A DNA stretch of 64,000 bases from a virus. The stretch spans positions 421,683-485,682 of the IMG/VR virus record IMGVR_UViG_3300017971_000185. The stretch is one strand, 5' to 3'. This document shows, piece after piece, positions 22,279 to 41,437 of this stretch (its first letter is position 1; each line of letters begins with the position of its first letter). The position numbers and the translations under genes are program-made. The notes under the pieces were generated by a model, which made no database searches, was not told where the DNA came from, and saw nothing but the letters and a program-made list of their open reading frames with translations.

Positions 22279-22965
22279 ATGCCGACGAAAGAACAGCTAG
22301 ATCTCCTTGCTGACAGTCCTCCAAATGCCACACGGGTCAAGGTCGTCACGGCCGAAGGGAAAGAGAAGTGGCGAATCCTTCCTGGTTTGGTTGGCCCCGA
22401 GGAGCAAGTCCTTCTCGATACCGACACGATTGCGCTGAGCAGCAAGAAGCGCAGGCCCATCTTCATGACGGGGAAGCCGGGGCGGAAGGTCCGTCCCAAG
22501 CGGGATCCCAAAGATGAGCTAGTCAAGGTCATCGTCAAGGACAAAGAAGAACACATGAAGAAGGATCCTCTTCTGGCTGCGGTTCGCGAGAACCCGGAGT
22601 CGGTGGAGGTTCTGCACGAAACGATCAAGGCCATAGCCAACGAGGTTTCCTCCCTGGAATTCGAGCGCATTGAGGCAGACCGCAAAGGCGAGGGCTCAGC
22701 CATGCTCTCGAATCGTCGCATCGCGGCGTTGACCAAGATCGGTGACACATGGCTCAAGCGGATGGACCAGATCATGTCCAAGGGCATCGATCTGGAGAGC
22801 CCGGCTTTCAAGGGTGTCTACAACCTGATCATGGAGACGTTTCGCGAGGCCATGTCCTCTGCAAATATCCGTGAGGAGGCCATCAAGCTGACGTTCACCA
22901 AATTCAGTCACCGTGTCGAGGCTGATGATTGGTGGAACGAGGCTCGGATGAGGATGAAGCAGTGA
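22279..22965 (+). CDS. probable small terminase subunit
   Basis: A 228-residue, mostly helical protein immediately upstream of the large terminase and overlapping it by 4 bases. It has a basic middle (KPGRKVRPKRDPKDE) that could bind DNA and a long C-terminal helical part (AFKGVYNLIMETFREAMSSA). Small terminases recognise the packaging site and regulate the large subunit, and usually sit exactly here. There is no diagnostic motif, so the call is by position. Confidence 0.5.
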   Translation: MPTKEQLDLLADSPPNATRVKVVTAEGKEKWRILPGLVGPEEQVLLDTDTIALSSKKRRPIFMTGKPGRKVRPKRDPKDELVKVIVKDKEEHMKKDPLLAAVRENPESVEVLHETIKAIANEVSSLEFERIEADRKGEGSAMLSNRRIAALTKIGDTWLKRMDQIMSKGIDLESPAFKGVYNLIMETFREAMSSANIREEAIKLTFTKFSHRVEADDWWNEARMRMKQ

Positions 22966-25100
22966 CCCGGTCGAGCCTAGCGGAGATAGCCCGAACGGTC
23001 GGCTCCTTCTGGGACAACAACGCGGCTTCCGGGCAGACAGAGGTGGTGGATGTCATCACCTTCATCGAGGAGTGGGCAGGCCGCAGGCTTTTCCCAGCAC
23101 AAAGAGTCATCCTCAAGGCCCACTACGGGCTGGCTCTCGATGACAGCCCGGCTGGCTTTTCAGAGGAGCTACTGGCGTCTTACTCGACCGTGGATCTCCT
23201 GGCTCTGGCGCTGGAGGAAGATCCCAAGGTCAGTGGTCAGGCAGATCGAGCGCAACTCATTCGGACCATCATGCGCAAGACCGTCGTCATCTATGATGAC
23301 GATGCTCCTTGGCGCAAGACGCCAGCCTCAGCGAAGTGGCTGACTGAGCGCGAGTACCTGCACTATCTGTACGACAACCAGCGTGCGAACATTCGCGAGG
23401 TCATTCCCGGCGAAGAACGCCGGGAGATGATCCTGAGTGTCGGACGACGGTCAGGAAAGACTGAGTTGTCGGCCATCATTGCGGCTTACGAGACGTACAA
23501 GCTGCTGGCCAAGGGGGATCCGCAGCTTTTCTACGGGCTCCCAAACGGCGAGACGATTCAGCTTATCTCTGTTGCTACTGATCGTGATCAGGCGAGCATT
23601 CTCTACGGCAAGGTCAAGGCGATCTTCAACGACACGGACTACTTCGCGGCTCACCGGGCCAACTCGACCCAGACCTTTGCGAAGTTTCAGACGGCGAGGG
23701 ACATCCAAGACTTCGGTCGGTTTGATGGCAATGCTCAGCAGGCGAGCATCAACGTCACTTTCCGTTCGTGCATCGCGAAGGGGCTGCGTGGTCCCGGTAA
23801 CATCGTCGCCATCCTAGACGAGATCGCTCACTTCACAGATGCAGGGCAGTCGTCGGCAGAGGAGGTCTACAAGGCGATCTCTCCGTCGCTCTCGACGTTT
23901 ACTCCGAAGGATCCCGACAACCGAACCAAGGCGCTCACGGAAACATCCGATGGGCGCATGATTCTGATCTCATCTCCGCTTGGTCGGCAGGGCAAGTTTT
24001 TCGAGTTGTTCCAGATGGCGATGAAGGGCGGCTCTGGGTCGGCCAACATGCTGGCGATTCAGGCACCGACGTGGGAGATCAACCCGACCATTCCGCCGGG
24101 AGAGTACGAGAAAGAGTACGCCAAAGATCCTATCCAATTCATCACGGAGTTTGGCGGCGAATTCTCCAGCCGGACGCTGGGTTGGATCGAGGTCCGCAAG
24201 GATCTGCTCGAATGCGTGGACCCGACGCTTCGCCAGCGAACACGCGGGCTCCCTCGTGTTCCTCATTTCATGGGGATCGACTTCGCGTTGGCTCAAGACG
24301 GCACGGCCGTAGCCATCGGTCACATCGAAGGCCCCAAGGTCATCCTCGACTACATCGATGAGATCCGTGCCGGGACGCCAGGGCCCTACGAGAACCATGA
24401 GCGGCTCGACTACGAGGAAGTGGCTGACTGGATTCGGGACTTGTCGAAGAAGTTTCTGATCGAGGAGGGGATGTTCGATCAGTGGGCCGGGATCATCTTT
24501 GAGCAAGCTCTTGCGAAGCGCGGACTTGCCCAGATCAAGACGCAACACCTGACGGGTCCTCTGTCGAGCCAGATCTTCAAAAACTTCAAGGATCTGATGT
24601 ACGAGAGGCTTCCCGGCGGAGAGTCGCGGCTCGTTCTCTACGATGACATGCCCGATAAGGACAAGACGGGGATGAGCGAGGACGCGTACCGGGAGGCACT
24701 GGCGGCGCAGGACGAGATGGGGGAGGGCGACGATCCGAAGGAGGAAGAAGGGCCTATCTCGTATCTCCAAGAGTTGCTGGAGCTACAGGCCACGATCAAG
24801 TCCAAGTACATCGTGGAGGTCAAGGCTCCCAATCTCGTTGGTAAGCATGACGACCGCTCGGATGCTCTGGTGCGCATGGTGTGGCTGGCTTCGCAGAGAC
24901 TTGGAAACATCAAGTATATCTCAGGGCAGATAGCTCAGGGCGTTGGCCCCAATCGACACCGAATCTCAGAAGGTGCGGTTGTCAAGGCGCGAATGAGGGC
25001 GATGCAGAGTGGTAGCCATGAGCATCGGACTGTTCGCCAGCGCCAGGGTCACTATGTGCGTCCAGTGCTCGGGGTTCGCGGAGGAAGGCTAAAGGGGTGA
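22962..25100 (+). CDS. terL: large terminase subunit (packaging ATPase-nuclease)
   Basis: A 712-residue TerL. The ATPase domain has Walker A (SVGRRSGKT), Walker B (IVAILDEIAHF) and a coupling motif (MILISSPLG). The RNase H-like nuclease domain has FMGIDFALAQDGTAVAIGH with its first Asp and the late DDRSDALVRM acidic pair. TerL pumps DNA into the prohead and cuts it. The GTG at 22962 overlaps the preceding stop and avoids a poorly supported upstream extension from 22929. The C-terminal 60 residues are basic. Confidence 0.92.
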   Translation: MTRSSLAEIARTVGSFWDNNAASGQTEVVDVITFIEEWAGRRLFPAQRVILKAHYGLALDDSPAGFSEELLASYSTVDLLALALEEDPKVSGQADRAQLIRTIMRKTVVIYDDDAPWRKTPASAKWLTEREYLHYLYDNQRANIREVIPGEERREMILSVGRRSGKTELSAIIAAYETYKLLAKGDPQLFYGLPNGETIQLISVATDRDQASILYGKVKAIFNDTDYFAAHRANSTQTFAKFQTARDIQDFGRFDGNAQQASINVTFRSCIAKGLRGPGNIVAILDEIAHFTDAGQSSAEEVYKAISPSLSTFTPKDPDNRTKALTETSDGRMILISSPLGRQGKFFELFQMAMKGGSGSANMLAIQAPTWEINPTIPPGEYEKEYAKDPIQFITEFGGEFSSRTLGWIEVRKDLLECVDPTLRQRTRGLPRVPHFMGIDFALAQDGTAVAIGHIEGPKVILDYIDEIRAGTPGPYENHERLDYEEVADWIRDLSKKFLIEEGMFDQWAGIIFEQALAKRGLAQIKTQHLTGPLSSQIFKNFKDLMYERLPGGESRLVLYDDMPDKDKTGMSEDAYREALAAQDEMGEGDDPKEEEGPISYLQELLELQATIKSKYIVEVKAPNLVGKHDDRSDALVRMVWLASQRLGNIKYISGQIAQGVGPNRHRISEGAVVKARMRAMQSGSHEHRTVRQRQGHYVRPVLGVRGGRLKG

Positions 25101-25792: not shown

Positions 25793-28700
25793 GTGGCGTC
25801 TCCAAGGAAACGCGTTCGCGCTCGGACATGCCTGCGGGTGACCCCCAAGCGACGGGTCATCGCGGGATCAGCGGATGTTCCGACCAACGGAGATGCTCAA
25901 CTCGTGGGCCGAGTACCCACGCGGACAGACCGGCGAGAGGAGCTATCGGTAGGTAAGCCGCAGCCTCTCATTCGTGGCTCGATGAGGTCGAAGATCGCTA
26001 CGTGTGGTGGGTCGGCTTTCAGCGGCTACGGAGGAGCCGGCGGCGTAGGAGGCATAGGTGTTTCTGGCGGCGGTTCGGGTGTTGGGTCGGCGGGATCATC
26101 CACGCTCGGAAGTGGTGGCAACTTCTATTCGCCCGAGCTATCCACCGATTTCCTTGAGCTACCGCAGAGCCTAGACGAGCAGCGAAACTACTTCCGGTTC
26201 TTCTACCGGGCTGATCCGTTTGTTGGTCAGGCCATCGATCTACACACGGAGCTACCGCTGTCCAAGATTCGTCTCGGTCGCCCCGAGGCCAAGAGCAAGG
26301 AGCTTGGCGATCAGTCATTGGACTTCATCAAACGTTGGTGCAAGAACATCGGGTTGTTGCATCGGCTGATCGAGATCGTTCACGAGTACAACCTCCTTGG
26401 TGAGGTCTTCATCTTCTTTGAGGACCGCAACCCGGAGATGCCCGAGGATATCCGTGTCGAGCGGAAGTATGTCTTGCCGGATGAGGAGGGTGCGGAGCTG
26501 ATCGAGCAAGCCGAGGAGCGCGACAACGCGGACGAGCGCGCTGCCGACTGGATGCAGGCAAACTACGAAGGATGGACGGCGATCCGCGTGCTTCCGCCGG
26601 AGCAGATTCATCTTGAGGGCTTTCCCTTTACGGATGAGAAACTCATCGAGCTAATCCCTGACTCCAAGACCAAGGCCATCATCGAGATGGCTGGCAACGG
26701 CGACGAACGAGCCAAAGAGATTGTGGAGTCGATGCCTGCGGATGTCGTGAGTGCGGTTACGGATGGCAAGAACATCCCGCTCAACACGAATCCGAAGGCA
26801 GGGTCGTTCTGCTACTACATGGCGAACAAGCGCAGCCAGTACGAGCCCCGCGGGCACTCTCGTCTGGAGCGCTGCATTCGCACGCTCGTCTATAAGGACA
26901 AGTGTCTGCTTCCGGGCTGCTTGGTTTGGGTGAGGAGAAAGGGTATCCCGCAGCAGGTCCGAGTAGAGACGATTCAAGACGGGGAATTCTTACTTACGCA
27001 CAAGGGGAGATTTCGCAAGGCTATAACCGGGTCTCGGGAAATTGAAGAAGATATTGTTGCTCTGGCGGTGGAGGGAATCCGGCGTCCGCTTTGTGTGACG
27101 AGGGATCATCGAGTGTTGGTTGTGGAGGATGGTGTTGAGCGATGGATCGAAGCAGGTGAGTTGAGGCCGGGGCAGCAGCTTTGCGAGCCTTCGATTGATA
27201 ACGGGGATAGGCGGAGGACGTTTGATCTTAGAAAGTGGTGGGGCAATCGTCATTTTGCGGTCCAACGAAGAAGTCTTTGCGGGGGGGAGACTTGTATTGT
27301 GGACCGTCACTTGAGTGTTTGTGAGGTAAGCGAAGAGGACAACACTCTATATGTAACATTTAGTTTTCCGCAGGATCATGTCAATCGTGTCGGGGCCGTA
27401 CAAGGAATGAGGAAATTGCTAGAATGGCTCAGAGATTTGGAGAGACCTACTCAGGTTTCTTACAAGGCTCTTTCTGAGGTTACTGGCATTTCTCCTGTTC
27501 GCTTAAGGAACTACGCGTTTACACTAAGAAAGCGTTTGGGTCTGCGGATGGATACAACTCCAGTAGGGGCAGGTCCGCGCAAGACTACGTGGCATCCCGC
27601 GCCCCCAGACGCCGAGGTTCCTGATGAGACTCAGTATCATACGTTGGCTTCGGGTCTTTGCGAAGTTCCTCTGACGGAAGACGTGTGTTATTTGCTTGGT
27701 GCTTTTTTGGGTGATGGGGCAATATGGCACAGCGATTGTAGATTTCTCAATACCTGCTATGTTGAGTGGTCGTTCGGCGGCGACGCCATTTCGTTAAAAG
27801 TACGAGATCGGATCGCCCGCATTGCAGGAGATTTGATCAGCGATGAGAATCTGCATTTTACCCCTGTAATGGGGGAATACGACACGGAGAGTGCGATTCA
27901 TTATGTTCGTGTTGAGGATGAATTGTTTGCACGATGGGTAGCCGAGGAGATGGGCGTTGACTGCTATACTAAGCGGTTGCCTTTTTGGGTGTTTGAGCTA
28001 GCAGATGAACAAATCAAGGCGTTGCTGTGTGGCCTACTTGATACGGACGGATCGTTGAAGGTTGGATTGCCTTCTAACGATAAAACTGTCGAGATCTCTG
28101 TTGAGTTGGCAAACGCTACATTAATTGATCAGTTACATCTCTTGTGCAATCGTGTGGGGCTTGTGTCGTATGTTGGGCAATGCACGAGGTCTGCAACTTC
28201 GATAACGCGCCGCTGGAAAACAAAATCCGGGATGCGGGAGAAGACATACACGTACCCGGAGGCAACATATTATTCGCTGAGAAGCACAGATTATTCTAGT
28301 GTTAGGGAGTGGAGTAGGGGTTCAGTTAAGGGAGAAGAAACAGAGTGGGTTGAGCGAAAGTATACTTGGCGTTCGCGGTTTGATCATAATAGGCTGACTC
28401 GAAGAATCACTGGAGTGGAGAGAATTCCATACACGGGTACGGTGTATTCGTTTGATGTAGAAGAAGATGAGTCGCATACAGGCGGTGGATTGCTTTTGCA
28501 TAACTGTCGGCAAGCCCAGACATCGATCGCATCGCGTCATATGACTCCAATTCGCCTGGTCTACGCTGAGAATATGAACCAAGCGCAGACCGAGGCCCTC
28601 CGAGATCAGATCGATCTGGCGCTGCAAGATCCCGACTACAGCATCGTCACCAACTTCCAGGTGACGTGGGAAGAGATGACACCGCAGGGTCGTCTCTTGG

Positions 28701-29260
28701 AGCTTTCGGGAGAGTACGAGCTAATCAACCGGGAGCTTTACGCGGGGCTCGGGGTCACGGAGTCGTTGCTGTCTGGCGAGTCGAGCTACAGTGGCGACCG
28801 CATCAATCTGGAGGTCATCAACGTCCGCTACATGCTCATGCGTGAGATCGTTCAAGATCTCATCGAGGAGTATTGCTTCAAGCCCATGTGCGCGAGGATG
28901 GGCTTCATCGAGACCGTCAATGGCAGGGATCAGGTCGTCTATCCGAAGCTGAGCTTTACTCGGCTTGCGCTTCGGGACAATCAGGACACCTACGACGCAC
29001 TCTACAACCTCTACTCGAAAGGCTCGATCCCGGTTTCGACCATTCTGGACCTTCTCAACATCGATCCAGAGTCGGCGGCGGAGGAGTTGGAGCGCGACTT
29101 CGCGACCTTCCAAGACGCGACGTTCAACGAGGTTCTCCGCGGTGCCTACTCCAGCGTGGGAACCAAGCTGGCTGACGATACCGACTTCACGGAGATGATC
29201 GCCAAGCGGCTTGGGCTCAAGTACGAGCCGAAGGAGGAAGGCGGCGGAGGACGGTTCTAG
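25793..29260 (+). CDS. portal protein interrupted by an intein
   Basis: A 1155-residue precursor. The exteins (370 + 251 residues) form a portal protein: a Gly-rich N-terminal arm, FRFFYRADPFVGQAIDLHTE, IVHEYNLLGEVFIFF, a stem/crown region, and the downstream LSGEYELINRELYAGLGVTE and GDRINLEVINVRYMLMREIV helices. The portal is the dodecameric DNA gate at the capsid vertex. A 534-residue intein lies between VYKDK and CRQAQ. The first 70 residues in this frame are Arg-rich and unconvincing. An alternative frame from the ATG at 25875 reads MFRPTEMLNSWAEYPRG and then stops, so a frameshift or a later true start is possible. Confidence 0.88.
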   Translation: MASPRKRVRARTCLRVTPKRRVIAGSADVPTNGDAQLVGRVPTRTDRREELSVGKPQPLIRGSMRSKIATCGGSAFSGYGGAGGVGGIGVSGGGSGVGSAGSSTLGSGGNFYSPELSTDFLELPQSLDEQRNYFRFFYRADPFVGQAIDLHTELPLSKIRLGRPEAKSKELGDQSLDFIKRWCKNIGLLHRLIEIVHEYNLLGEVFIFFEDRNPEMPEDIRVERKYVLPDEEGAELIEQAEERDNADERAADWMQANYEGWTAIRVLPPEQIHLEGFPFTDEKLIELIPDSKTKAIIEMAGNGDERAKEIVESMPADVVSAVTDGKNIPLNTNPKAGSFCYYMANKRSQYEPRGHSRLERCIRTLVYKDKCLLPGCLVWVRRKGIPQQVRVETIQDGEFLLTHKGRFRKAITGSREIEEDIVALAVEGIRRPLCVTRDHRVLVVEDGVERWIEAGELRPGQQLCEPSIDNGDRRRTFDLRKWWGNRHFAVQRRSLCGGETCIVDRHLSVCEVSEEDNTLYVTFSFPQDHVNRVGAVQGMRKLLEWLRDLERPTQVSYKALSEVTGISPVRLRNYAFTLRKRLGLRMDTTPVGAGPRKTTWHPAPPDAEVPDETQYHTLASGLCEVPLTEDVCYLLGAFLGDGAIWHSDCRFLNTCYVEWSFGGDAISLKVRDRIARIAGDLISDENLHFTPVMGEYDTESAIHYVRVEDELFARWVAEEMGVDCYTKRLPFWVFELADEQIKALLCGLLDTDGSLKVGLPSNDKTVEISVELANATLIDQLHLLCNRVGLVSYVGQCTRSATSITRRWKTKSGMREKTYTYPEATYYSLRSTDYSSVREWSRGSVKGEETEWVERKYTWRSRFDHNRLTRRITGVERIPYTGTVYSFDVEEDESHTGGGLLLHNCRQAQTSIASRHMTPIRLVYAENMNQAQTEALRDQIDLALQDPDYSIVTNFQVTWEEMTPQGRLLELSGEYELINRELYAGLGVTESLLSGESSYSGDRINLEVINVRYMLMREIVQDLIEEYCFKPMCARMGFIETVNGRDQVVYPKLSFTRLALRDNQDTYDALYNLYSKGSIPVSTILDLLNIDPESAAEELERDFATFQDATFNEVLRGAYSSVGTKLADDTDFTEMIAKRLGLKYEPKEEGGGGRF
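26903..28504 (+). mobile_element. LAGLIDADG intein in the portal gene
   Basis: A 534-residue intein. Block A starts CLLPGCLVWVRRKG, block B is LCVTRDHRVLVV, block F is TVYSFDVEEDESHTGG and block G is LLLHN followed by Cys. The central endonuclease has two dodecapeptide motifs, CYLLGAFLGDGAIW and ALLCGLLDTDGSLK. The DNA is clearly AT-richer than the extein, a sign of separate origin. All splicing residues are present, so removal is expected. Confidence 0.92.
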
Positions 29261-29298: not shown

Positions 29299-32200
29299 AT
29301 GTTCTCAGCCGCCAAAATCGCCAAACGTTACCTGCAACGGCAGGCGAATGGCAAGAAAACTGGCTACCGGGACAGCGTGGGATTGTTCATTCCGCTGCCC
29401 GCCGCTCTCGCCAGGCAGTTTCCGTCACTCGGCACTGAGGACCGTTCGCCACCGCACACCACTTTCCTGTTCGTAGGTGACGTTTCGGAGGACCGGGAAG
29501 CTGACTTTCTGAGGGTTTTGAGCGATGCGTTCCAGGGCGAGGGCTGGCCCAGGGTCAAGGCCACGCTGGGCGATCTCAACTACTTCCAGCACACCGACAA
29601 GGGGCGGATCGTTCCTCACGTGGCCGTGAAATTCGGTCAGCCGATGGCTGAGTTACGGGACCGGGTGAAGAATCGCTTGGAGGAAGCGGGTTTCGAGGTC
29701 AAGGACTCGTTTCCCGTCTACATGCCGCACGTCACGTTGGATTACACGCCTGGGTTTGACAAGCCGTACAAGGGGGACGTGCCGACCGGTACGTGGGAGT
29801 TTGATGAAATGGAAGTGTGGGGCTTGCCCAAGGTCCACAAAGTCAAGTTTGGGTCCGCACTCCAGAGCAAGCTGGGTGCTCAGAAAAGGAGTCCTCGGGA
29901 CATCCCCACGAAGGCGCAGCTTGACTTTGATGGCACGTTCTCCCACTGGCAGAAGTCAGCGTTTGTCGCGGAGTCGGGTTGGGATGCAGCGGACAACCAT
30001 CGATTTGTGCTCTGGCCGGACAACAGAGATGAGGAGACGTTTCTCAACGGGCCAGTGCGGTCGCTATTCGAGGACAGCGGGTACTTCACCGGGCGTGTCT
30101 GGAGCGACACACAGAAGGAACAAGGTCGTCCGCTCGGAGTCGAGGTCCATGGGGAAATTGCCAAACGTGTTGCCAGGCAGTACTTGGCTCGCGTTCAGCC
30201 ACTTGACCTACGGCAGATCGAGAAGTTTCGCAAGGACTTCTTGATGCTGATGAAGAACGCCAAGGTCGTGAAGGACTATAAACAGGCGTTGAAGTGGAAA
30301 GAGGCGGTCCAGACTTGGAGTGATCGGTTTGAGCTTTTCGTTCTTGATCGTCTTCGCAAGGCAATCAAAGACCTGAGATTTCAGAGGCGAATTACCCAAG
30401 GTGATGCAGACTATTGGGACAAGAAGATCGGGCACGAGGTCTGGGATTTGCATCTCGACTTTCGTGTTCCTCTAGAGCGCTACGAATTTGTGGTCAAGTA
30501 TGATCCGAGGGCGTCTAGAGAGGGGCTGTTTGCGCAGCTACAGCGCGAGCTTCCAAAGTGGGAAGGGCGTGTGCGTCGCTCAGCGCGCAAAGCATGGCGT
30601 GTGCTCAAGGACTTTGCGGAGTGGTACTCGCGAATCTCTGAAACACCGCTGGGCGTGGATATCCCTGAAGAGGAGCGGGTAAGCATTGAGGGTCTTCCGG
30701 TAACAATCAGAGGTTTTCCGACCGACTCCTCTGAGATGTACGCCGACTTTTTGGAACGATTTAAGGTAGGTCTGAAACGCTACAAACAGCGTGCCAGACA
30801 AGCGCTTCCGCTTCTGCTCCGCGGTCAGCTTCCGTTGGTTGTCGATTTCCGTGCGAGGCTCGATGAAGCGGGGGTCTACGAGCACGACCACATCTCCATC
30901 AATCCTACTTCGGCGGAGCGAAATCCAGGCGCGCTGGCTAAGACCATTGCGCATGAGATGGGGCACCACGTCTACAAGACGTACTTGAGCAAAACCGCTC
31001 AAGACTTCTGGTCTCGGGCGATTTCAGGAAACTACGGAACGCTTGATCTCAACGAAGTTGCTCGTAGGTACGGAGGCGACAAGTTTCTCTACGATAACGA
31101 ACGGATCAAGAAAGAGAACCCGTTACTTTATCTTCAGATCCAAGGGCTGTGGCACATGCCGGAGACCAAGCGCGTATTCGATTACGTCTTGGGCATGGAT
31201 GACTTGAAGAAGTACCTCGCAGAAGGCGGCACGGCCAAGTTTCGGGTCCACGGCAAGCCGATCACGGGATACGCCCACAAGAATAAGGAGGAAGCGTTTT
31301 GCGAGGCTCTGGGCATGCTCGTCGGTTACGGACCACGCACCGTACTGCCGGAGGTTCGGTTGTGGCTCAAGACGATTCTGCCCCAGATCAAGATCGCACG
31401 CCATTCCGTGAGCCAGTGCATGCACAAGGGCTGCAAGAAGGCTCCAGAGATCGAGTGTATCTGGGCTGAGGGCATCGGCCATGCGTGGTTTTGCAAGCCG
31501 CACTTCAAGGAGTGGTCCACCAAAGGGGACGGGAAGGGAGAGGTCTGTAGGCAATGGGAGATCGACGGAAAGGCGGGAGAGAAGAAGTGCGCTGGTGATG
31601 GAGAGTGTTTCTATCCAGGCCAGCGCGTGAAGATCGGCCCTTATACAGACGGATCTTGGAAGGATGGCGTTGTCTTGAAGTTGGAGCGATACGACATCCT
31701 CAATCCAGATGTTCTGGTGCGAGATGACGAAGGCATTGAGGACTGGGAGGACCAGGACAGCTTGGTTCCCTTGGAAGGACCAGACGCTAGGGCAGATCCC
31801 TCTTTGAAGACAGCCAAGCCAAGCGATAGCTGGCTGGCGCTGAATCCCGACGTGCTCTACCGGGCCGAAGAGGAGGATGAGGAAGTGACGGCGGAGGATC
31901 TCGTAGCCGAAGCCGCGCGGTTGTTGGGAGTTGCCAAAGCCGGACCCGTTGTGGATAGCACGGAGTGGAACGAGGACGTGGCGTCGTTCCTGAAGATCGC
32001 TCCGCCCGTAATGCGCGTGGCTTTCCAGTACAGGCTCAAGACGGCTGGATGGTGGGCGATTCAGCCGGGCAAGCCGGGCATCAACCCTCCGCCAGTCGAC
32101 AAGGGTGGCTTGATGAACGCCATCCCAGGCACGGACCCGAACGAAGGGGCGCTCTATGGCGGGGATCGTCCCGCGGACATCCTGGGTGACGCCATGCGGG

Positions 32201-33831
32201 ATGTGGACCGAGAGTATCTGCTTGCCTGGGGCCGACCGGCGACCCGGACAGAGCTAGAAGAGGCATGGAATTTCGTGATGGGTCCGATTCTGGAGGACGG
32301 GAGCTTCAACTACGGAAGCAAGTCGGAGCCGTTGAACCAGTGGCTCATCGAATTTGCCGAGTGGTTGGGGAAGAAACCCAACGAGATCATGTTCTGGAGC
32401 GACGATCTGTGGCATGCGTTGGCGCGGCTGTGGAAAGAAGGGAAAGGTCCCGCGCACCTGGAGGCATACCGCAAGGAGTTGCTGGGGGTCTGTGAGGACT
32501 CCAAGGGGTTCGGCGAGCACGCCACGCTTCGTTCAGAAGACCTGGCAGAGAGGCTCCAAGCTCGGGTCTCGGTCATCCATGATGAGACTTTCCGTGGTGA
32601 AGATACTTTGGAAGGAGACCAGGAGCCGGAGATCTTCATTGGTCGGGTGGCTTCCCAGCACTTGGCTCTGAGTGCGCACCGACGCTCGATCGCGTTGATG
32701 AAGTTTCTGTCCGAGACTGCGAGGAGCCTCGGCGTAGCGAAGCATGTCTACGTGGTGGGTGGCGCGGTACGAAACTTCGTCATCGAGCGGCCGATCAAGG
32801 ATCTGGATCTCGTGATCGACTCCATGTCGGCCGGGCGCGACTCCGAGTGGTTTGCCAAGGAGTTAGCGCGTCGGATCCCAGCAGCCACAAACCTCAAGAC
32901 GAATCAGTACGGGGTCGCCATCCTCACTGTGAGCGGAGATTGGGAGCTAGATGGCGACAACATGAAGGGTGAGGTCATAGAGATCGCCAACGCCCGTAGC
33001 GAGTCCTACGCCAAGGGTGAGGGGAAAGGCTACAAGCCTTCGGAGGTACAACCGGCGACCATCGAGCAGGATATACGAAGGCGCGACTTTACAATGAATA
33101 CATTGATGTGGCGCCTGCTGGACTTGGCGAAGGGGCCAGACAAGGCCGAGATCATCGATCTTACGGGGTGTGGTCTGAAAGACCTGAAAGAGCGTTCGGT
33201 CAAATGCCCGGCCGACCCCAACAAGACGTTCTCAGATGACCCCACGCGCATGTTGAGGGTCATTAAGTTTACGGGGAAGTACGGCTTCAAGATCCCGCCA
33301 GACGTAGCGGCTTCCATCAAGCGCAACGCACGGAAGATGAAGCAGATGCCCTGGGAGGCCATCGGCAACATCTTGGTCGGAGACATTCTCAAGGAGCCTA
33401 CCGCCCGCAAGTCACTACGTCAGATGAAGGAGCTTGGGCTGCTCGACGTGGTGAGCGAGATGATTCAGGAGAAGCGACCGTTCGCCACGTTCATGGCGAA
33501 CCAACTCAAGCGCGACCGACGGGTGCAGCTTCTCCTCGATCTCATGGATCTCGGTCTCCCAGCGAACACACCGCTCCACTTCCTCACGCCCAAACAACGG
33601 CAGTGGCTTCGCGAGACCACGGTGAGGATGCCAGAGGATGAGGCGAGCAAGTTTGCAGACAGGCTGATCAAGCCTCCGGTGGACAACAAGAGAGTCATTG
33701 ACGAGTTGATGCTGCCGCCGCCAGAGCGAAGCCGCATCAAACCGTTAGCTCGCGAGCTAATTCTGGCTGACCCGAAGCTGGCTGACGATCCCCGAAAGCT
33801 CACGGATCTGGTGGTCAAGAAGTGGAAGTGA
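29299..33831 (+). CDS. giant fusion: 2H phosphoesterase, metallopeptidase, CCA-adding enzyme
   Basis: A 1510-residue protein with at least three enzyme domains. Residues about 1-185 form a 2H phosphoesterase (LigT/2'-5' RNA ligase superfamily) with both HxTx motifs: HTTF (His53) and HVTL (His144). Around residue 552 is a zinc-metallopeptidase motif, IAHEMGHHVY, with a later EAFCEALGMLVGYG that could give the third ligand. A Cys/His cluster (CMHKGCKKAPEIEC) and acidic linkers follow. Residues about 1148-1400 are a class II tRNA nucleotidyltransferase/poly(A) polymerase: YVVGGAVRNF, IKDLDLVID, RRRDFTMNTL and DDPTRMLRVIKF. The motif [RK]VAxx[YH]L recurs near domain borders. Located between portal and protease genes, it may be packaged in the virion. 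Confidence 0.85.
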   Translation: MFSAAKIAKRYLQRQANGKKTGYRDSVGLFIPLPAALARQFPSLGTEDRSPPHTTFLFVGDVSEDREADFLRVLSDAFQGEGWPRVKATLGDLNYFQHTDKGRIVPHVAVKFGQPMAELRDRVKNRLEEAGFEVKDSFPVYMPHVTLDYTPGFDKPYKGDVPTGTWEFDEMEVWGLPKVHKVKFGSALQSKLGAQKRSPRDIPTKAQLDFDGTFSHWQKSAFVAESGWDAADNHRFVLWPDNRDEETFLNGPVRSLFEDSGYFTGRVWSDTQKEQGRPLGVEVHGEIAKRVARQYLARVQPLDLRQIEKFRKDFLMLMKNAKVVKDYKQALKWKEAVQTWSDRFELFVLDRLRKAIKDLRFQRRITQGDADYWDKKIGHEVWDLHLDFRVPLERYEFVVKYDPRASREGLFAQLQRELPKWEGRVRRSARKAWRVLKDFAEWYSRISETPLGVDIPEEERVSIEGLPVTIRGFPTDSSEMYADFLERFKVGLKRYKQRARQALPLLLRGQLPLVVDFRARLDEAGVYEHDHISINPTSAERNPGALAKTIAHEMGHHVYKTYLSKTAQDFWSRAISGNYGTLDLNEVARRYGGDKFLYDNERIKKENPLLYLQIQGLWHMPETKRVFDYVLGMDDLKKYLAEGGTAKFRVHGKPITGYAHKNKEEAFCEALGMLVGYGPRTVLPEVRLWLKTILPQIKIARHSVSQCMHKGCKKAPEIECIWAEGIGHAWFCKPHFKEWSTKGDGKGEVCRQWEIDGKAGEKKCAGDGECFYPGQRVKIGPYTDGSWKDGVVLKLERYDILNPDVLVRDDEGIEDWEDQDSLVPLEGPDARADPSLKTAKPSDSWLALNPDVLYRAEEEDEEVTAEDLVAEAARLLGVAKAGPVVDSTEWNEDVASFLKIAPPVMRVAFQYRLKTAGWWAIQPGKPGINPPPVDKGGLMNAIPGTDPNEGALYGGDRPADILGDAMRDVDREYLLAWGRPATRTELEEAWNFVMGPILEDGSFNYGSKSEPLNQWLIEFAEWLGKKPNEIMFWSDDLWHALARLWKEGKGPAHLEAYRKELLGVCEDSKGFGEHATLRSEDLAERLQARVSVIHDETFRGEDTLEGDQEPEIFIGRVASQHLALSAHRRSIALMKFLSETARSLGVAKHVYVVGGAVRNFVIERPIKDLDLVIDSMSAGRDSEWFAKELARRIPAATNLKTNQYGVAILTVSGDWELDGDNMKGEVIEIANARSESYAKGEGKGYKPSEVQPATIEQDIRRRDFTMNTLMWRLLDLAKGPDKAEIIDLTGCGLKDLKERSVKCPADPNKTFSDDPTRMLRVIKFTGKYGFKIPPDVAASIKRNARKMKQMPWEAIGNILVGDILKEPTARKSLRQMKELGLLDVVSEMIQEKRPFATFMANQLKRDRRVQLLLDLMDLGLPANTPLHFLTPKQRQWLRETTVRMPEDEASKFADRLIKPPVDNKRVIDELMLPPPERSRIKPLARELILADPKLADDPRKLTDLVVKKWK

Positions 33832-33839
33832 CGACTCCC

Positions 33840-36800
33840 ATGCGTGTCGCCGGCATCTTGGCCTACCCGCCAAAGATGCGACAGGAGATCCTCGATTGGG
33901 TGAAGTCGCTATATGCCACATGGGCTGCAACGAGAGCCCGTGTGGAAATCAAGGGGCACAAGGAGGATATCAAGGAATTCAAGGCTGATCTCAAGGAGGC
34001 AACGACTCCAAGAGAGATTGAGCGGCTCAAGGATCGTATCGAGGTACGACAAGAAGGCATCGACAAAGCGAGCAAGATTCTGAAGGAAGCCATCCGCGAT
34101 GGTGCGAAGGGCCGTGGTCGGAAAAAGTCCAAGCGTGACTTCGTGACGGACCTGGGGGGGATGCCGAAAAACTACCCGATCGAGCAGTTGCAGCAGGAGA
34201 TACCCAAGATTCGCGTCGGGGTGGAGTTTACAGGCCAGCCCGCTCCGCGAGAACGCGCTGTCCACGGCACGTGGAACGGCAACACCAAGAAGTTGAGGAT
34301 TCTGCTGCACGGTAGAGCGCCTGACCAGATCTTCAAGTACCGCGAAGCTGCTCGGACCATGGACACGATCATCAAGCATGAGCTTCGGCACATGGTCCAG
34401 CAGATGTTCTTCCAGTTTGAAGCGGAGTTGATGGAGAGGAAGATTCTGGAGCGCGGCAAGAGCTGGGAGAAGCTGAGCCCGAAAGAGCAAGAACACATCC
34501 GCAAGTCGCTGAGCCGAGGTGCGCCAAAGGAGTACGAAGTTGGCAGCTTTGCGCTCTATGAGGACGTTCCCAAGAATCTACAGTACTACCTACTGCCGCA
34601 GGAGTTTTTCACGTGGCTCGGTCAGAGCGAGGAGACGTTCTTGGATGAGGTTCGCACCATGCGGGTGGTTGGTGGTGAGAAGGACCCCCGACCCAAGAAG
34701 AAGGAGTTTGACCAGTTTGTAGGCAACCCGCGGCCGATCAAGTCGAAAGGCCGGGTTCTCAAGAAGGGCGACCCCATTGCCACGCATCCGTTCTTCGCGA
34801 CTCTGTGGGAATACGACCGCAAGCGGTGGCAACGGGCAGTGCGTGAGTTGTGGAAGCGTGTGCAGAACAAGCTCGTCTTGCCGCCAACGAGATTGCCGTC
34901 TTCCAAGAGGGTAGCAGCGCGACACAAGACCGCCCGCATGGCAGAGCGGGTAGCGATTCGGCATCTGGTTGCCCGCGCTCCCATGAGCAAGCTGCTCGGG
35001 GACCTGATGGGCAAATGGGAGCTTCTCAACCGTAGCGTCGATGAGGATCTGCAAAAGGGCGGGGTATCGCGGGCCGATTTCCTGGCCAACAGGTTCAAAG
35101 GTCTGGACGAGTACGACATTCGGTCGTTGCTCATGCGTCTCAAGTCTAGCGGCCGGGTCATTTGGCCGCACATGCTTCGGGCTGCCAAGCTCTGGGTCGA
35201 GTACCTGCTTCAAACCAAATCGATTCCGCGAGGCCAGGCGAAGAAGTTTGAGTTGTCGGCACGGCCCTTCTCTGCGGCCAAGCGGCCTCCACGAGACATC
35301 GTCGCGTGGCTTGAGAAGAACAAGGGCAAGTATCGCTACTTGGTAGACGCAGCCGGGTGGCCGGACAAGGTTGAGAATGGCATCGGGGGAGCAGAGGACT
35401 TGTTTACGGTCGGGCCGTTCAAGGTCCACAACACCGTGCGGGAGACGGGCGGTCAGCCGCGAACGTTGGCCTGGTACAACCCGAATGACGACAAGCTCTA
35501 CCTACGACCGCATATCAAGGTGGGAGAGGGCGAGCTTCACAATTTCCTGCATGAGTTGGGGCATCGCTATTGGGACAAGATCATGTCTCGCGATGTCAAG
35601 ACGAAATGGGCGAATCACCACTCGATGATCAAGTACGGGCTTGGGCAGTACGAGCGGTCTAGACCCACAGATCTACCTGAGATTGGTGAGCCTCTTCCGA
35701 TCCCCATGCAGGGCATGAGGCGCGGGGGTCCTCCGATAGTCACCGATATCGATGATCGCTTCATCCACGTCTTGCACAAGCCAACTGGACGTGACGCCAA
35801 GATCAAGAAGCGGGAGTACTGGAAGTTTTTGGAGCGCCGAGCCAAACGGGGGCAGTTTCCGACCCCTTACGCCAGTACGAATAGGGAGGAGCACTTCTGT
35901 GAGGCGCTTGCCATGCACCTCCTCGGCAATCTGCCGGAGCCCCACAAGTCGATCTTCGACACGGTCGTGATCAAGGGTGAAGACCCTCCTGGGATGCCGG
36001 CAAAGGTCGCCCGGATGTACCTCGCCAAGCGGTTCACGCCGGAGGCGTGGAAAGAGTACAAGCGCAAGCACCCCAAAGCCGATCCGAAGCGACACGAGAT
36101 TGTCCAGCCCGAGAAGGGGAAGGCTCCAAAGCCCAAGAAAACGGTCCGGCAGAAGCTCGACCACGTGTTCACGAGCATCAAGGGGCTCAGCAAGTCGGTC
36201 GCCAAATCGGTTCGCGAAGCTCCCGAGAAGGTCCAGAAATTCATCGTGGACAAGAGTTATCGCGATGACGTGACCAAAGCAGCCGCCAAGACGATCAAGG
36301 AAGCCCCTGGAAAGATCAAGACCGCGGTCATCCAGTCCGGCAAAGCCGAGTTGAAGGCAATCTTCAAGGAGACTCCGCGCATCCTCGCCACGCTGGCGAA
36401 AGAACGACGCGCTCCCACGAAGGCAGAGGCAAAGACTCTTTATGGAGTCGGTGTGTATGTGGCAGGGACGGTTCTAGCCATGACCACCGGAGGGCCGGCA
36501 GGCGGAGCGATTGGGCGAGTGGCCTTGGCCGGCGCTAAAGCGTTCGGGCATAGCCTGAGCCTGCACATCGGCATCAAGGCCATGAACCAGTTTGCTGATG
36601 AGGGATTCCTGGCCTACGAAGCAGCCGAAAGTGTTGCTCAGGCAGGAGGCATTTCGGCGGTGCTTCCAGTCAGCACGAGTGCTCTTCCTGGTCTGGGTCA
36701 GATTTGGGATGCCGTGAGTAAGGTGGTGATGGCTTCGGAAGAGAAGTCCAAGTCCGAATCCGCGATGGATAAGATGATTGAGCAGTTGATCAGGATCATC

Positions 36801-36869
36801 GGGGAGGAGTTGGATAAGGGGCTCACGGACGATGAGATTGTGAAGATTCTGAAGGAGGAACGGCCGTGA
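33840..36869 (+). CDS. large protein with two metallopeptidase motifs and hydrophobic tail
   Basis: A protein of about 1009 residues; a GTG at 33822 is an alternative start. Two separate zinc-peptidase motifs occur: IIKHELRHMVQQ (His180) and FLHELGHRYWDK (His571). The second is followed by EEHFCEALAMHLLG, matching the third-ligand helix in the 1510-residue neighbour. Then come VARMYLAKRFTPEAWKEYK, a Lys/Pro-rich linker, repeated helical segments and a Gly/Ala-rich hydrophobic region (GVYVAGTVLAMTTGGPAGGA) that could cross or disturb a membrane. It overlaps the next gene by 4 bases. Candidate roles are cell-wall or protein digestion during DNA entry. Confidence 0.75.
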   Translation: MRVAGILAYPPKMRQEILDWVKSLYATWAATRARVEIKGHKEDIKEFKADLKEATTPREIERLKDRIEVRQEGIDKASKILKEAIRDGAKGRGRKKSKRDFVTDLGGMPKNYPIEQLQQEIPKIRVGVEFTGQPAPRERAVHGTWNGNTKKLRILLHGRAPDQIFKYREAARTMDTIIKHELRHMVQQMFFQFEAELMERKILERGKSWEKLSPKEQEHIRKSLSRGAPKEYEVGSFALYEDVPKNLQYYLLPQEFFTWLGQSEETFLDEVRTMRVVGGEKDPRPKKKEFDQFVGNPRPIKSKGRVLKKGDPIATHPFFATLWEYDRKRWQRAVRELWKRVQNKLVLPPTRLPSSKRVAARHKTARMAERVAIRHLVARAPMSKLLGDLMGKWELLNRSVDEDLQKGGVSRADFLANRFKGLDEYDIRSLLMRLKSSGRVIWPHMLRAAKLWVEYLLQTKSIPRGQAKKFELSARPFSAAKRPPRDIVAWLEKNKGKYRYLVDAAGWPDKVENGIGGAEDLFTVGPFKVHNTVRETGGQPRTLAWYNPNDDKLYLRPHIKVGEGELHNFLHELGHRYWDKIMSRDVKTKWANHHSMIKYGLGQYERSRPTDLPEIGEPLPIPMQGMRRGGPPIVTDIDDRFIHVLHKPTGRDAKIKKREYWKFLERRAKRGQFPTPYASTNREEHFCEALAMHLLGNLPEPHKSIFDTVVIKGEDPPGMPAKVARMYLAKRFTPEAWKEYKRKHPKADPKRHEIVQPEKGKAPKPKKTVRQKLDHVFTSIKGLSKSVAKSVREAPEKVQKFIVDKSYRDDVTKAAAKTIKEAPGKIKTAVIQSGKAELKAIFKETPRILATLAKERRAPTKAEAKTLYGVGVYVAGTVLAMTTGGPAGGAIGRVALAGAKAFGHSLSLHIGIKAMNQFADEGFLAYEAAESVAQAGGISAVLPVSTSALPGLGQIWDAVSKVVMASEEKSKSESAMDKMIEQLIRIIGEELDKGLTDDEIVKILKEERP

Positions 36870-39800
36870 GCGACTATTCCGTGCTTCAAGTTGCGGCCTT
36901 GTACCGAGCCTCTCAGGACACCAAGTACAAGGGCAAGAAGGTCGTCAAGAACCAAGACGGTGAAGATACGACCGTCTACGAGTACAGCGAACGGCAGGTT
37001 GCGTTGCGGGACAAGGACAAGGCCGAGCGCATCCAGAAGCTCCGACAACGCCGGAGCGACCTGATCAAGAAGGTCAAGAGCGATCTCAAGAGCAAGGATG
37101 ACAAGACCCGACTGACCGCTCTGGCGGTCGCACTCATTGATCACACTTACGAGCGTCCGGGTAACGAGGACAGCGCCGACGATGGTCATTTCGGTGTTAC
37201 TGGCTGGCTCAAGAAGCACGTCACGTTCTCTGGCAACAAGGCCACGCTGAGTTACGTCGGGAAGTCTGGCGTCAAGCAGAAGAAGATCGTGAACGACGCG
37301 GCTGCGGTCAAGCTGCTCAAGGAGATCACGAAGGGCAAGAAGCCAGACGAGCAGATCCTCACGACAGATGACGCGAGCATCACAGCCAAGGACATCAATG
37401 CCTATCTGCCCGAAGGCATCACGGCCAAGGATCTGCGAGGGCTCCATGCCAATGAGGAGATGCTTGGGCAGCTAAAGAAGGTCAGGAGCAAGGGATCGAA
37501 GCTGCCGAAGGCTCGCACGGAGCGTGACCGCATTCTCAAAGACGAATTTAATCGAGCGTTGAAGGAGACGGCCGAAATTGTCGGGCACGAGCCGAGCACG
37601 TTGCGAAGCCAGTATCTCGTTCCTCACTTGGAGGACGAGTACAGGAAGGACGGCACCGTTCTCACGAATCTGGACAAGACGGCAGCCGCCCCGAAATTCC
37701 GCAACTACGAAGAGGCTATGGCGTGGGTGAAGAAGAAAAGCCGGGAGTACGGCGGTAAGAACAAGTTTCTGTCGAGTGACGAGTACCGGGAAGCCTACCC
37801 GGTGATCAAACGGTTGTCCGACAAGGCGAAGAGTGAGGCGAGGAAGAGTCTGCGCGGAGATGCCGAGCGTGCCATGAAGGAAGTCGGGGTCCGGTTCGGA
37901 GATCGTGTGGAATGGCATCAGGTGGGGCCGTTCATGACGGTGGACGTGTTCACCGGCACTGTGGTGGACAAGAAGGGCATCCCGTATGTGAAGCTGGATC
38001 GGCCAGTCCAGGGGAAGCGGACAGTGCGTTGGCACAAAGGGTTCCGGCGCGTTGCGGCCAAGACAGCGGCCGAAGTGGGCACGGATACCGGAACCATTTA
38101 CGCGATTTCGCCCGAGATGCTTCATCGCGTGGTCTCACGCAGTGTTTGGCGTGACGCTGCGGATGAGGTTTGGAACGAGGGTGTTCCGGCTGACTTTAGT
38201 GCGTTGTGGGAGCGCATGAGCCGGGAGATTCGTGAACACGGCGGAGCCGTGTTGTCGCCGGGCGGTGATGGACGCTGGGATGTGACGATTCCCGAGGCGG
38301 CTCCTCACTTGCAGGAGCAGGGTTTGCTGCCTCCCTACGGGACGCCCGAGTTTGGGCGCGAGGCGACCAAGAGCAAGGCCGAGAAAGAAGAGGAGCAGAT
38401 CAGGAAACTGCTCCGTCCCGATCCCAAGAAGAAGCCGCCCCGTCACGACCTTCGAAAACATCGCATCGAGGAAGAGGATGAGGATCTGAAGGGAGACCGG
38501 GCGGATGAGGACAAGGATCGCAGCCTGAATTACAAACACGTGGCGGCTCTCTACCTGCAAGCCTGGCAGAAGGCCAAGAGCGAGGAAGCCGCCAAGAAGC
38601 TCTTTGACCAGTACAAAGAGAAGAACCCGGACACGGAAAAGACCTGGCAGGAATTCCTAGAGGACCCCGAGCCCAAGGAAAAGAAGCCCGAGGAAGAGAA
38701 GTCGAAGAAGGACAAGGCTGAGGTCGGGGAAGAAGGCGAGAAGCTCTGGAAAGACATAAAGGATGAGCCTCCGCCAGACAAGGGGAAGAAACCATCGCCC
38801 GACGCCGAAGCGGTCGCACGCAAGAAGATTGTCAAAGACACCGTGAAGGGCGTTGCGGATTCTCTGAAATCCAACATCGCAGGTGCTTCGCTCCCTCCAG
38901 CCGTGCGCAAGGAGATCACGACAGCGCTGGAGAACATGGACGCGGAGCAGATCAAAACGTTCAACAGCGCTCTCCAGAGCTACGGTTCACGAGCCAAGAC
39001 GCTCGCGATAGATGGGCCGAAGGCTGTCCAGAAGGCCGAGCGGGCGCTAGAGGATTTGGCCGACTATGACTTCGCGGGAGCGCTCAAAGCCGATGAGCTA
39101 GCTCAGAAAGTGGTCGAGCAGGCTCACGCGAACGCGGTGATCAAGAAGGACAAGCAGAAGCAACGCGGTAAGAAGCGCAAGGTCACCGACTCCATCGACA
39201 AGATGCAAGAAGTCGTGCGCGACCTGTCGGGCGACTCCAAGTACGTCATCCCGAAGAAGGTCAAGGACGTGCTCAAGAAGCAACTGGAGGGGATGGAAGA
39301 GGAGAAGTACGAGGATGTCATCGGTGCCGTCGAGCGCCATCTCCATCTCATGCAGCAGGAAGAGAACCTCGATGCAGCAACGGCTCTAGCTCCGGCAGAG
39401 GCGTCCTTGGAGGAATTCGAGGAGCGCATCGATGAAATGGACGATCCGCACGCGAAGGGAGACCAGATCGCGGAAGCCATCCAAGCCACGCGCGTCGTCC
39501 AGCGACATGAGCAACGTGAGAAGGCGAAGCATCAGGCGAACAAGGCAGCGGTGTCGTCCACTGCACGGATCTTCGGAACGAAGGAAGTCCCTTCGGATGT
39601 CATGGACAAGCTGGGCCCGGCCCTGGAAGGGCTCGATCTAGAGGAGAAAGAGAAGTACGTCGAGGCTGTCCAGGCCGAGTACCGAGACATCAAGAACCGC
39701 ATCGAGACAGATCCGGCAACCGGCGCACAACGGATTCCGCCCTTGCTTCTCAGGGAGTCCATGGAGGCGCTGGAGAAACCATCCTACGAGGGCAGCCCCG

Positions 39801-41437
39801 AGGACATCGGACGCGCCACAGCACGCGCGATGGCGGCACAGACGTTGATCGCAGACCCGTTCACGATCGGCGGACAGAAGGTCGGCCAGGTTGCTCTGGA
39901 CGACGCTGGAACCCGTCAGCGAGGGCTCCAGGCTTTCGAGAAGTACCAGGAGTTGCCCCAGCAGATGAGGACGGCTGCTGCCTCCCAGATTCAAGAGCGG
40001 CTGGAGAACGTCGATCCCGAGAGCCCCGAAGCCAAGGAGCTAAACCGCATCCTCGATGGCATCGCCCTGGCTGCGCTCGTTGATGAACGCGAGGAAGACA
40101 AGCTGCCGCAGATCCCGGGCCGCGAAGTGAATGAGGGATTCGCGGAGGTTGCGCGAGCGATGGCGAAGGCGGGCAAAATTGACTTGTTACTAGGTCCCGT
40201 CGAGGATTTCTACAGCGCGGAGGGCCAGAAGTCGGTCCACTCTGCGATGCAGAGCCTCGATGACGCCAACCTGGCTCGGTCCGTCAAGGACACCATGCCG
40301 GGGATGGATGAGTACCTCGTAGGCACCGAGGAGACGCCAGCGCTCCCAGAAGAGAAGAAGCGGCATTTGCGCCAGGCCATCATCGACATGGCCGTAGACA
40401 ACATGACCGTCGTGGACCGCCTCATCCGCTCCCGACTGGAAGAAGCCGGAGAGAAGAAGAAGGCCCGAGACGCCAAGTATGTGGCCGAGACGGCGCGAAA
40501 AGCTACTGGAAAGTCTTGGTGGCAGAAACTCATCGAGAAGTACCTAAAACCGGATGTTCCGATGGCGCAAACTCGGACTTCCTCCGGTAGTTTGAAACTT
40601 CCAGCGTGGACTCTCCGAGATGGAGAAAGGGTCCGACTGGCAGATTCAGATTCTCCCGAGGAAAGCCCTGTTTTGGACATGCGGTTGGAGTATTTGCGGG
40701 CTCTCAACGACTTTGTGACCAAAGAAATTGGGAAGCCTTCAAAGTCGCATGCAGACCGCGCAATTCAACGATTCTTGGAAACGAAGAACCCGAATTTCCT
40801 CCGATCCGAACCTGAAACTCCAGAAGGAGACTTTGAAAGTGCGGAACGGAAGAAAGAGGGACGAAATTCTCGTTTTTCGCTTGATAGTAGGCACGTATTA
40901 GCAGCGGGGCAGCCTTCTGTCCGCGCTGTCGAACCCTTTTTCGTCTCAAAGAGAGGAAAACAAATGTCAACGCTGACTCGTGAGGCTGCCCAAAAGGTCA
41001 CGGATGACCTTGATCGTATTGCCAATCTCTTCCAGCACAATCACGAATCCCTGGGGGTTCCGCAGAAGATTGCGCTCGACTTTGCCTATCGCTGTGATCT
41101 GCTCTCCGACGAGATTGGCCGTCTGACCGGCCAGGAGAAAGAGGCGTACCAGCAAGGCACAGGAGAGGGTACAGCGCCAGGTTCCGACGACAACACGAAC
41201 AAGGGTCCGTCGCAGCCGTTCAACCCTGCCGAGATCGGCAAGCAGGACAACACGCCCCCGCAGACGGAGCCCGATGAGCCTTACATGAAGGGCAACTTTC
41301 TCCAGAAGGAGTACAACGAGCTTCGCAACTGGCAGGAGCAAGGGTTGTTCTCCAATGCGAAGGCAGCCTCCGTAGTTGCCAGCCGGATGATCGCCAAGCT
41401 TCAGGGGCTTCAAGCTGCACTTGACGGCGCCGAGTAG
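36866..41437 (+). CDS. giant protein with N-terminal topoisomerase IB
   Basis: A 1523-residue protein. Residues about 55-260 are a poxvirus/bacterial-type DNA topoisomerase IB with all five catalytic residues assignable: Arg97 (YERPGNED), Lys133 (YVGKSG), Arg191 (AKDLRGL), His241 and Tyr250 (GHEPSTLRSQY; the His-Tyr gap of nine matches vaccinia). This enzyme relaxes supercoils through a 3'-phosphotyrosine link. After it come an SH3-like piece, long charged coiled-coil regions with KHVAALYLQAWQKA, and repeated helical domains. The last 157 residues may also be made alone from 40964. Position in the head cluster suggests an internal virion protein. Confidence 0.8.
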   Translation: MSDYSVLQVAALYRASQDTKYKGKKVVKNQDGEDTTVYEYSERQVALRDKDKAERIQKLRQRRSDLIKKVKSDLKSKDDKTRLTALAVALIDHTYERPGNEDSADDGHFGVTGWLKKHVTFSGNKATLSYVGKSGVKQKKIVNDAAAVKLLKEITKGKKPDEQILTTDDASITAKDINAYLPEGITAKDLRGLHANEEMLGQLKKVRSKGSKLPKARTERDRILKDEFNRALKETAEIVGHEPSTLRSQYLVPHLEDEYRKDGTVLTNLDKTAAAPKFRNYEEAMAWVKKKSREYGGKNKFLSSDEYREAYPVIKRLSDKAKSEARKSLRGDAERAMKEVGVRFGDRVEWHQVGPFMTVDVFTGTVVDKKGIPYVKLDRPVQGKRTVRWHKGFRRVAAKTAAEVGTDTGTIYAISPEMLHRVVSRSVWRDAADEVWNEGVPADFSALWERMSREIREHGGAVLSPGGDGRWDVTIPEAAPHLQEQGLLPPYGTPEFGREATKSKAEKEEEQIRKLLRPDPKKKPPRHDLRKHRIEEEDEDLKGDRADEDKDRSLNYKHVAALYLQAWQKAKSEEAAKKLFDQYKEKNPDTEKTWQEFLEDPEPKEKKPEEEKSKKDKAEVGEEGEKLWKDIKDEPPPDKGKKPSPDAEAVARKKIVKDTVKGVADSLKSNIAGASLPPAVRKEITTALENMDAEQIKTFNSALQSYGSRAKTLAIDGPKAVQKAERALEDLADYDFAGALKADELAQKVVEQAHANAVIKKDKQKQRGKKRKVTDSIDKMQEVVRDLSGDSKYVIPKKVKDVLKKQLEGMEEEKYEDVIGAVERHLHLMQQEENLDAATALAPAEASLEEFEERIDEMDDPHAKGDQIAEAIQATRVVQRHEQREKAKHQANKAAVSSTARIFGTKEVPSDVMDKLGPALEGLDLEEKEKYVEAVQAEYRDIKNRIETDPATGAQRIPPLLLRESMEALEKPSYEGSPEDIGRATARAMAAQTLIADPFTIGGQKVGQVALDDAGTRQRGLQAFEKYQELPQQMRTAAASQIQERLENVDPESPEAKELNRILDGIALAALVDEREEDKLPQIPGREVNEGFAEVARAMAKAGKIDLLLGPVEDFYSAEGQKSVHSAMQSLDDANLARSVKDTMPGMDEYLVGTEETPALPEEKKRHLRQAIIDMAVDNMTVVDRLIRSRLEEAGEKKKARDAKYVAETARKATGKSWWQKLIEKYLKPDVPMAQTRTSSGSLKLPAWTLRDGERVRLADSDSPEESPVLDMRLEYLRALNDFVTKEIGKPSKSHADRAIQRFLETKNPNFLRSEPETPEGDFESAERKKEGRNSRFSLDSRHVLAAGQPSVRAVEPFFVSKRGKQMSTLTREAAQKVTDDLDRIANLFQHNHESLGVPQKIALDFAYRCDLLSDEIGRLTGQEKEAYQQGTGEGTAPGSDDNTNKGPSQPFNPAEIGKQDNTPPQTEPDEPYMKGNFLQKEYNELRNWQEQGLFSNAKAASVVASRMIAKLQGLQAALDGAE
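40964..41437 (+). CDS. possible internally initiated 157-residue protein
   Basis: In frame with the end of the 1523-residue protein, an ATG at 40964 is preceded by a strong ribosome site (gagaggaaaac). Its product starts MSTLTREAAQKVTDDLDRIA, a helical N-terminus typical of a separate head protein, and ends in a short helix (VVASRMIAKLQGLQAALDG). The roughly 400 bases before it have lower GC and different codon use than the regions around them. This could be a gene that fused to the upstream ORF but is still expressed on its own. Confidence 0.45.
   Translation: MSTLTREAAQKVTDDLDRIANLFQHNHESLGVPQKIALDFAYRCDLLSDEIGRLTGQEKEAYQQGTGEGTAPGSDDNTNKGPSQPFNPAEIGKQDNTPPQTEPDEPYMKGNFLQKEYNELRNWQEQGLFSNAKAASVVASRMIAKLQGLQAALDGAE

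Follow-up and report, generated by a model that had tools for sequence, protein, structure and literature searches.

Polyvalent proteins combine at least two disparate enzymatic domains in one polypeptide, are encoded among virion or late genes, have a zincin-like metallopeptidase in the same chain or its neighborhood and enter the host together with the phage DNA (Iyer et al. 2017, PMC5512222). Short address sequences are known from T4, in which about 10 N-terminal residues are enough for a foreign protein to enter both the head and the host (PMC9026906; PMC9958956); in this capsid-targeting sequence (CTS), residues 4 and 7 serve targeting and residues 8 and 10 processing (PMC9026906). Furthermore, CCA-adding and 2H enzymes occur among the RNA-repair and nucleotide-targeting enzymes of jumbo phages (PMC7824862). 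Here, we analyzed a stretch of 64,000 nucleotides (the window) from a ~497-kb phage contig, a virus record of 497,194 bases. It harbors an intact reading frame of 1510 codons without internal stop (positions 29299 to 33831, plus strand) that encodes a polyvalent-like protein of 1510 amino acids (here named P0001). Two further IMG/VR contigs carry the same open reading frame (ORF) with identical sequence. A search for the host of the phage by scanning GTDB genomes with TerL gave no match.

Gene neighborhood and enzyme modules of P0001

The genes in this region are arranged in the order TerL, portal, P0001, two more giant ORFs, protease and major head protein. TerL (22929 to 25100) is encoded upstream of P0001, as is a portal protein split by one intein (25793 to 29260, plus strand; phrog_16240). 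The giant ORF that follows P0001 overlaps its 3' end by 10 nucleotides and encodes a metallopeptidase-like protein of 1015 amino acids with HExxH-type motifs (33822 to 36869, plus strand). The next one (36866 to 41437, plus strand; 1523 amino acids) begins with a topoisomerase IB domain at residues 24 to 262 (PF01028, E = 4.8e-24), followed by a long tail. Further downstream lie an ortholog of the head maturation protease (41981 to 46096, plus strand; phrog_18299), with two apparent intein insertions that were read from the sequence and a family call that was made on an intein-free ortholog, and the major head protein (48364 to 49236; phrog_2522). The original prediction of a 1510-residue fusion of three enzymes between the portal and protease genes was borne out, as the frame is open and the domain calls stand; the presence of three unrelated enzymes in one ORF was also correctly recognized, but is not without precedent, given the polyvalent proteins. 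Three short tags and a linker of ~400 amino acids with a Cys/His-rich patch had been overlooked, as had the ORFs for the metallopeptidase (33822) and topoisomerase IB (36866) ahead of the protease. Elsewhere in the window, positions 19245 to 20924 encode a protein of 559 amino acids with a Dps/ferritin domain (PF00210, residues 278 to 415), which has an N-terminal stretch in common with ORF 33822 (ERVAREFSPEEW.. and KVARMYLAKRFTPEAW.., respectively).

The first module of P0001 (residues 25 to 191; 29371 to 29871, plus strand) is a LigT/CPDase-like 2H phosphoesterase with HxT motifs at H53 and H144. Its match to PF13563 was below threshold in a Pfam scan of the whole ORF and above the cut-off when residues 1 to 286 were scanned alone (E = 4.9e-10). 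A back-translation scan for relatives yielded only the same phage, and homologs were instead taken from an HMM search of TerL-clade loci; all 12 of these matched PF13563, with both HxT motifs invariant. An AF2 model of the module (mean pLDDT 73.7, with core blocks mostly at 81 to 96) was placed by Foldseek in the E. coli LigT/drCPDase fold (probability 1.00, E = 1.9e-7), and D. radiodurans CPDase, E. coli LigT and Usb1 were all found with a probability of 1.00. The module thus combines a LigT-like fold with a pair of HxT motifs, the features by which 2H phosphoesterases are recognized, and family searches and the modeled fold place it closest to LigT/2',3'-cyclic-phosphodiesterase enzymes.

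The second module (residues 296 to 700; 30184 to 31398, plus strand) is a zincin-like metallopeptidase with the motif HEMGHH at residues 552 to 557 and a distal EEAFCE at residues 664 to 669. A Pfam scan gave no family match in this region; the HExxH motif and the distal glutamates are retained without exception by 15 diverse homologs. Foldseek searches of the PDB with its AF2 model (pLDDT 82.6) yielded weak matches to M1/M34 zincin cores (best E = 0.047) and no close kinship to a named peptidase family, so that the module looks like a divergent zincin family by its motifs and model. The subsequent linker of ~400 amino acids (residues 703 to 1115), for which family searches gave no match, begins with a Cys/His-rich patch from C707 onward (31417 to 31503, plus strand) that may form a zinc knuckle, judging from its sequence.

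The C-terminal module (residues 1133 to 1507; 32695 to 33819, plus strand) matches class II CCA-adding enzymes and poly(A) polymerases, with E = 2.5e-19 for PF01743 (residues 1150 to 1301) and ~1e-14 for class II enzymes in the PDB. The motifs GGAVRN, DLD, RRDF and DDPTR are intact and correspond to the GGxVR, DxD, RRD and EDxxR-type motifs of class II, with DDPTR standing for EDxxR. On these matches, the module is assigned to the class II nucleotidyltransferases, and CCA and poly(A) addition are alike compatible with its sequence. In two relatives (L058 and L086), apparent inteins lie within the CCA catalytic motif (REFTFN|C ... HN|TLMWRL).

A seven-residue tag at module borders and protein termini

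Immediately ahead of each P0001 module lies a helical tag of seven residues with the consensus [RK]VAxR[YFHW]L, which was searched for with the pattern [RK][VIL]A.[RKQH][YHWF][LVIM]. Tag 1 (KIAKRYL, residues 6 to 12; 29314 to 29334, plus strand) is located at the N terminus before the 2H module and forms an isolated helix in the AF2 model. Tag 2 (RVARQYL, residues 290 to 296; 30166 to 30186, plus strand) directly precedes the metallopeptidase and corresponds to RVAGRYL in an ortholog, and tag 3 (RVASQHL, residues 1116 to 1122; 32644 to 32664, plus strand) directly precedes the CCA module. Further tags are found in ORF 33822 (residues 376 and 728) and in ORF 36866 (HVAALYL at residue 558).

The strict tag occurs six times in the ORFs of the window, compared to 0.16 times in residue shuffles. 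The uncultured 485-kb phage LR745208, whose TerL is 49% identical to that of the phage studied here, has 13 strict tags when G is allowed for A, versus 1.75. Across 71 TerL-clade loci, some of them on near-identical contigs, 82 tags were counted versus 3.6 after shuffling. A pooled clade set (1767 ORFs, 503 kaa, identical 3' ends collapsed) contained 78 tags versus 2 to 7 matches for reversed, permuted, shifted and A-to-G or A-to-S control patterns, although the contigs are kin and the counts are not fully independent. The tags occur at N termini (24, with 11 expected), at C termini (17, with 5.5 expected) and between modules; none of 34 lies within a mapped domain, where 15 were expected and none of 20,000 permutations reached so low a number.

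To avoid circularity, a profile was built solely from 11 tags of LR745208 and run on the genome of the present phage. It found six places with modest E-values, as expected for a motif so short, including the N terminus of P0001 (E = 0.015) and a tag of ORF 33822 (E = 0.17). The four others (best E = 0.001) comprise two short ORFs that carry the tag at their N terminus or close to it (MSASAQRVASRYLQ at 224008 and MPPSFKRVARRYLE at 17161), a protein at 394209 that resembles ADP-ribosyltransferases, with weak Pfam support and an N-terminal tag, and a place at 361890 on the minus strand. The tag does not appear to be a general feature of phage ORFs: the strict form is absent from stretches of 45 kb taken from Tunturi_5 and from Rctr197k, and 12 other peptidase loci contained two tags, both N-terminal. 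A limited search of the open-access literature for the motif strings yielded no occurrence. A 694-codon open frame at ~30.7 kb of the genome (L031) has the tag RVAARYL at its N terminus and a stretch rich in Arg and Tyr that resembles protamine; judging by this composition, its product could be a DNA-condensing head protein.

Relatives of the modules exist both alone and fused. In LR745208, a stand-alone peptidase of 454 amino acids (39% identity in the alignment) harbors RVAGRYL at residue 14, a second peptidase KVADRFL at residue 14 and an ART-PolyVal protein KVAFRHL at residue 20, and a 2H protein begins with HKVARRAL. The start of a stand-alone CCA protein reads MTVSPISVASRFVQSA. HAD_SAK, a Pfam name that refers to RNA-repair proteins, carries a C-terminal tag when alone (L067, L090 and L115; the variant KVAERAL in the present genome), and this stretch becomes the linker when HAD_SAK is fused to 2H or TopoIB. 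Likewise, 2H is joined directly to CCA via RVASLWL or RVASVWI in L058 and L059, with tag, linker and CCA arranged as at tag 3. For peptidase, CCA and HAD, the terminus of the stand-alone protein that matches the fused form thus bears the tag or a variant of it. Several stand-alone peptidase homologs lack the tag, which counts against its reading as an address.

Of 73 sources searched with HMMs, 19 contained TopoIB, 14 2H, 11 HAD, 10 CCA and 9 peptidase, for the most part within giant ORFs located in the portal-protease region, and the giant ORFs occupying the same slot in relatives are combinations of CCA, 2H, TopoIB, HAD_SAK and peptidase. The tag carriers (ART-PolyVal, peptidases, 2H and HAD_SAK) are effector-like. 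A second polyvalent-looking protein of the present phage lies at ~225.9 kb of its genome (L034), with an apparent 2H domain, a ParB-like region, the tag RVAARHL and then a HEFGHH peptidase, and no Pfam match above threshold. The virus Rctr197k from a DAMO enrichment encodes a multi-domain protein of 2175 amino acids directly 3' of its terminase gene (L008, 16140 to 22667), in which a search for the strict tag found none.

Possible roles of the tagged enzymes

We consider it probable, at roughly 60%, that P0001 is a polyvalent, tagged multi-enzyme cargo that is targeted to the prohead, perhaps cut, and injected for the repair of RNA or tRNA ends; packaging, cleavage, injection and substrates are what we infer from sequence. 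The tag most likely acts like the T4 capsid-targeting sequence, by analogy, and its distribution suggests an address that loads a cargo kit into the head for delivery at infection; it could instead denote a different destination or a site of contact with a scaffold. As an address, it would dock the cargo onto the prohead core, leading to its packaging and to its injection together with the DNA. The head protease or the resident metallopeptidases may release separate enzymes by cutting the chain between modules; no protease cleavage motif was identified, which counts against this reading. In the host, broken RNA or tRNA ends would be mended by the 2H and CCA modules, and the peptidase would either process the chain itself or turn against a host protein.

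The pairing of 2H with CCA, to which relatives add HAD_SAK, points to the healing of RNA ends. The proposed role of the CCA module in tRNA repair is plausible and is strengthened by the clade relatives that join CCA, 2H and HAD_SAK. The phage genome contains 49 tRNA matches, 48 of them over the Rfam cut-off and at 310 to 376 kb, and CCA is absent directly after the tRNA in 22 of 32 phage tRNAs checked, which makes tRNA finishing a serious alternative or addition: completing the ~48 tRNAs of the phage itself would fit the module equally well, and besides repair the module could also finish those lacking CCA. Searches of this genome for an RNA-ligase partner with PF09414 or RtcB found none; the ORF behind a weak PF09414 match reads as a NAD-type DNA ligase.

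A distant peptidase homolog on one short contig (L055) begins with MLTFGQFLSEA, and the adjacent Dps protein with MKGFHQFLKES; these starts match T4 ipII (MKTYQEFIAEA) at positions 4, 7, 8 and 10. This short contig thus suggests that cargo of one kind travels under two addresses, one of T4 type in the lineage of L055 and one in the form of the [RK]VAxRYL tag in that of P0001.

The same tRNA data would also suit ordinary late-made enzymes that stay unpackaged, with the CCA module maturing phage tRNAs and the tag serving as a helix for multimerization or contact with the head scaffold. We regard this as unlikely, since P0001 sits between portal and capsid genes, the tag is also borne by an ADP-ribosyltransferase and by peptidases encoded elsewhere in the genomes, and in L055 the equivalent place is taken by targeting sequences of T4 type. 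Still less probable is that the metallopeptidase and the tags are devices of head maturation, with the tag as protease site or propeptide junction and the enzymes as secondary cargo. Zincins have been proposed to process polyvalent proteins (PMC5512222) and the tags lie at module borders; yet cutting at extreme C-terminal tags would free almost nothing, and T4-type targeting sequences have an acidic residue ahead of the cut (position 10) that is missing from the tag.

The lowest probability goes to an anti-CBASS or anti-signaling kit, in which the 2H module would degrade cyclic oligonucleotide signals like Acb1, a role raised in the original prediction. The 2H superfamily does include such enzymes, signal degradation has been proposed for polyvalent 2H domains (Iyer et al. 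2017, PMC5512222), and PF23474 (Acb1) weakly matches the 2H protein of LR745208 (E = 0.003) and 1 of the 12 homologs. These matches are below the cut-off, the P0001 module likewise has no Acb1 match above it, LigT/CPDase ranks first by sequence and fold, and the recurrent 2H partners are CCA and HAD_SAK; an anti-CBASS role is therefore not favored. The idea of an injected kit in the original prediction gains support from the genomic context and the shared tag.

A broader reading, to which we assign slightly less than an even chance, sees in [RK]VAxR[YFHW]L a new capsid address of a huge-phage clade that works N-terminally, C-terminally and within the chain; modules would be sorted singly, and the giant ORFs would be polyproteins cut into tagged, injected enzymes for RNA repair and attack on the host. 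If so, a motif of seven residues would suffice to read from sequence alone which proteins an uncultured clade of huge phages putatively injects, new host-takeover enzymes among them, and would offer a new peptide with which to load proteins into large phage heads. The long-standing question of what huge phages carry along when infection begins, and of whether RNA repair sets in ahead of phage gene expression, would thereby become directly testable.

Comparison with known systems

By its sequence features, P0001 fits the polyvalent protein concept: it unites disparate enzymes in one chain beside virion genes and includes a zincin peptidase, recognized by HExxH and the distal glutamate with a weak fold match, and 2H and ADP-ribosyltransferase domains are also in the catalog of Iyer et al. 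(2017, PMC5512222). It differs in having one tag per module and stand-alone tagged counterparts. The terms "CCA" and "targeting sequence" have 0 occurrences in PMC5512222, and a limited search of the open-access literature found no report of a CCA module in a polyvalent chain, a tag per module or its clade-wide use, each as read here from sequence. The 2H module shares the fold and both HxT motifs with LigT/ThpR and related CPDase enzymes and, unlike these, sits within a multi-enzyme phage protein. CCA-adding and 2H enzymes are both present among the RNA-repair enzymes of jumbo phages (PMC7824862), whereas in P0001 they are fused and encoded in the head gene cluster. In contrast to the T4 CTS, the tag has an unrelated sequence, also occurs internally and at C termini, is present in several copies per chain and shows no cleavage site; as in the T4 internal proteins (IPI-III and Alt), a short tag is shared by otherwise unrelated cargo of a defense-related or host-modifying kind.
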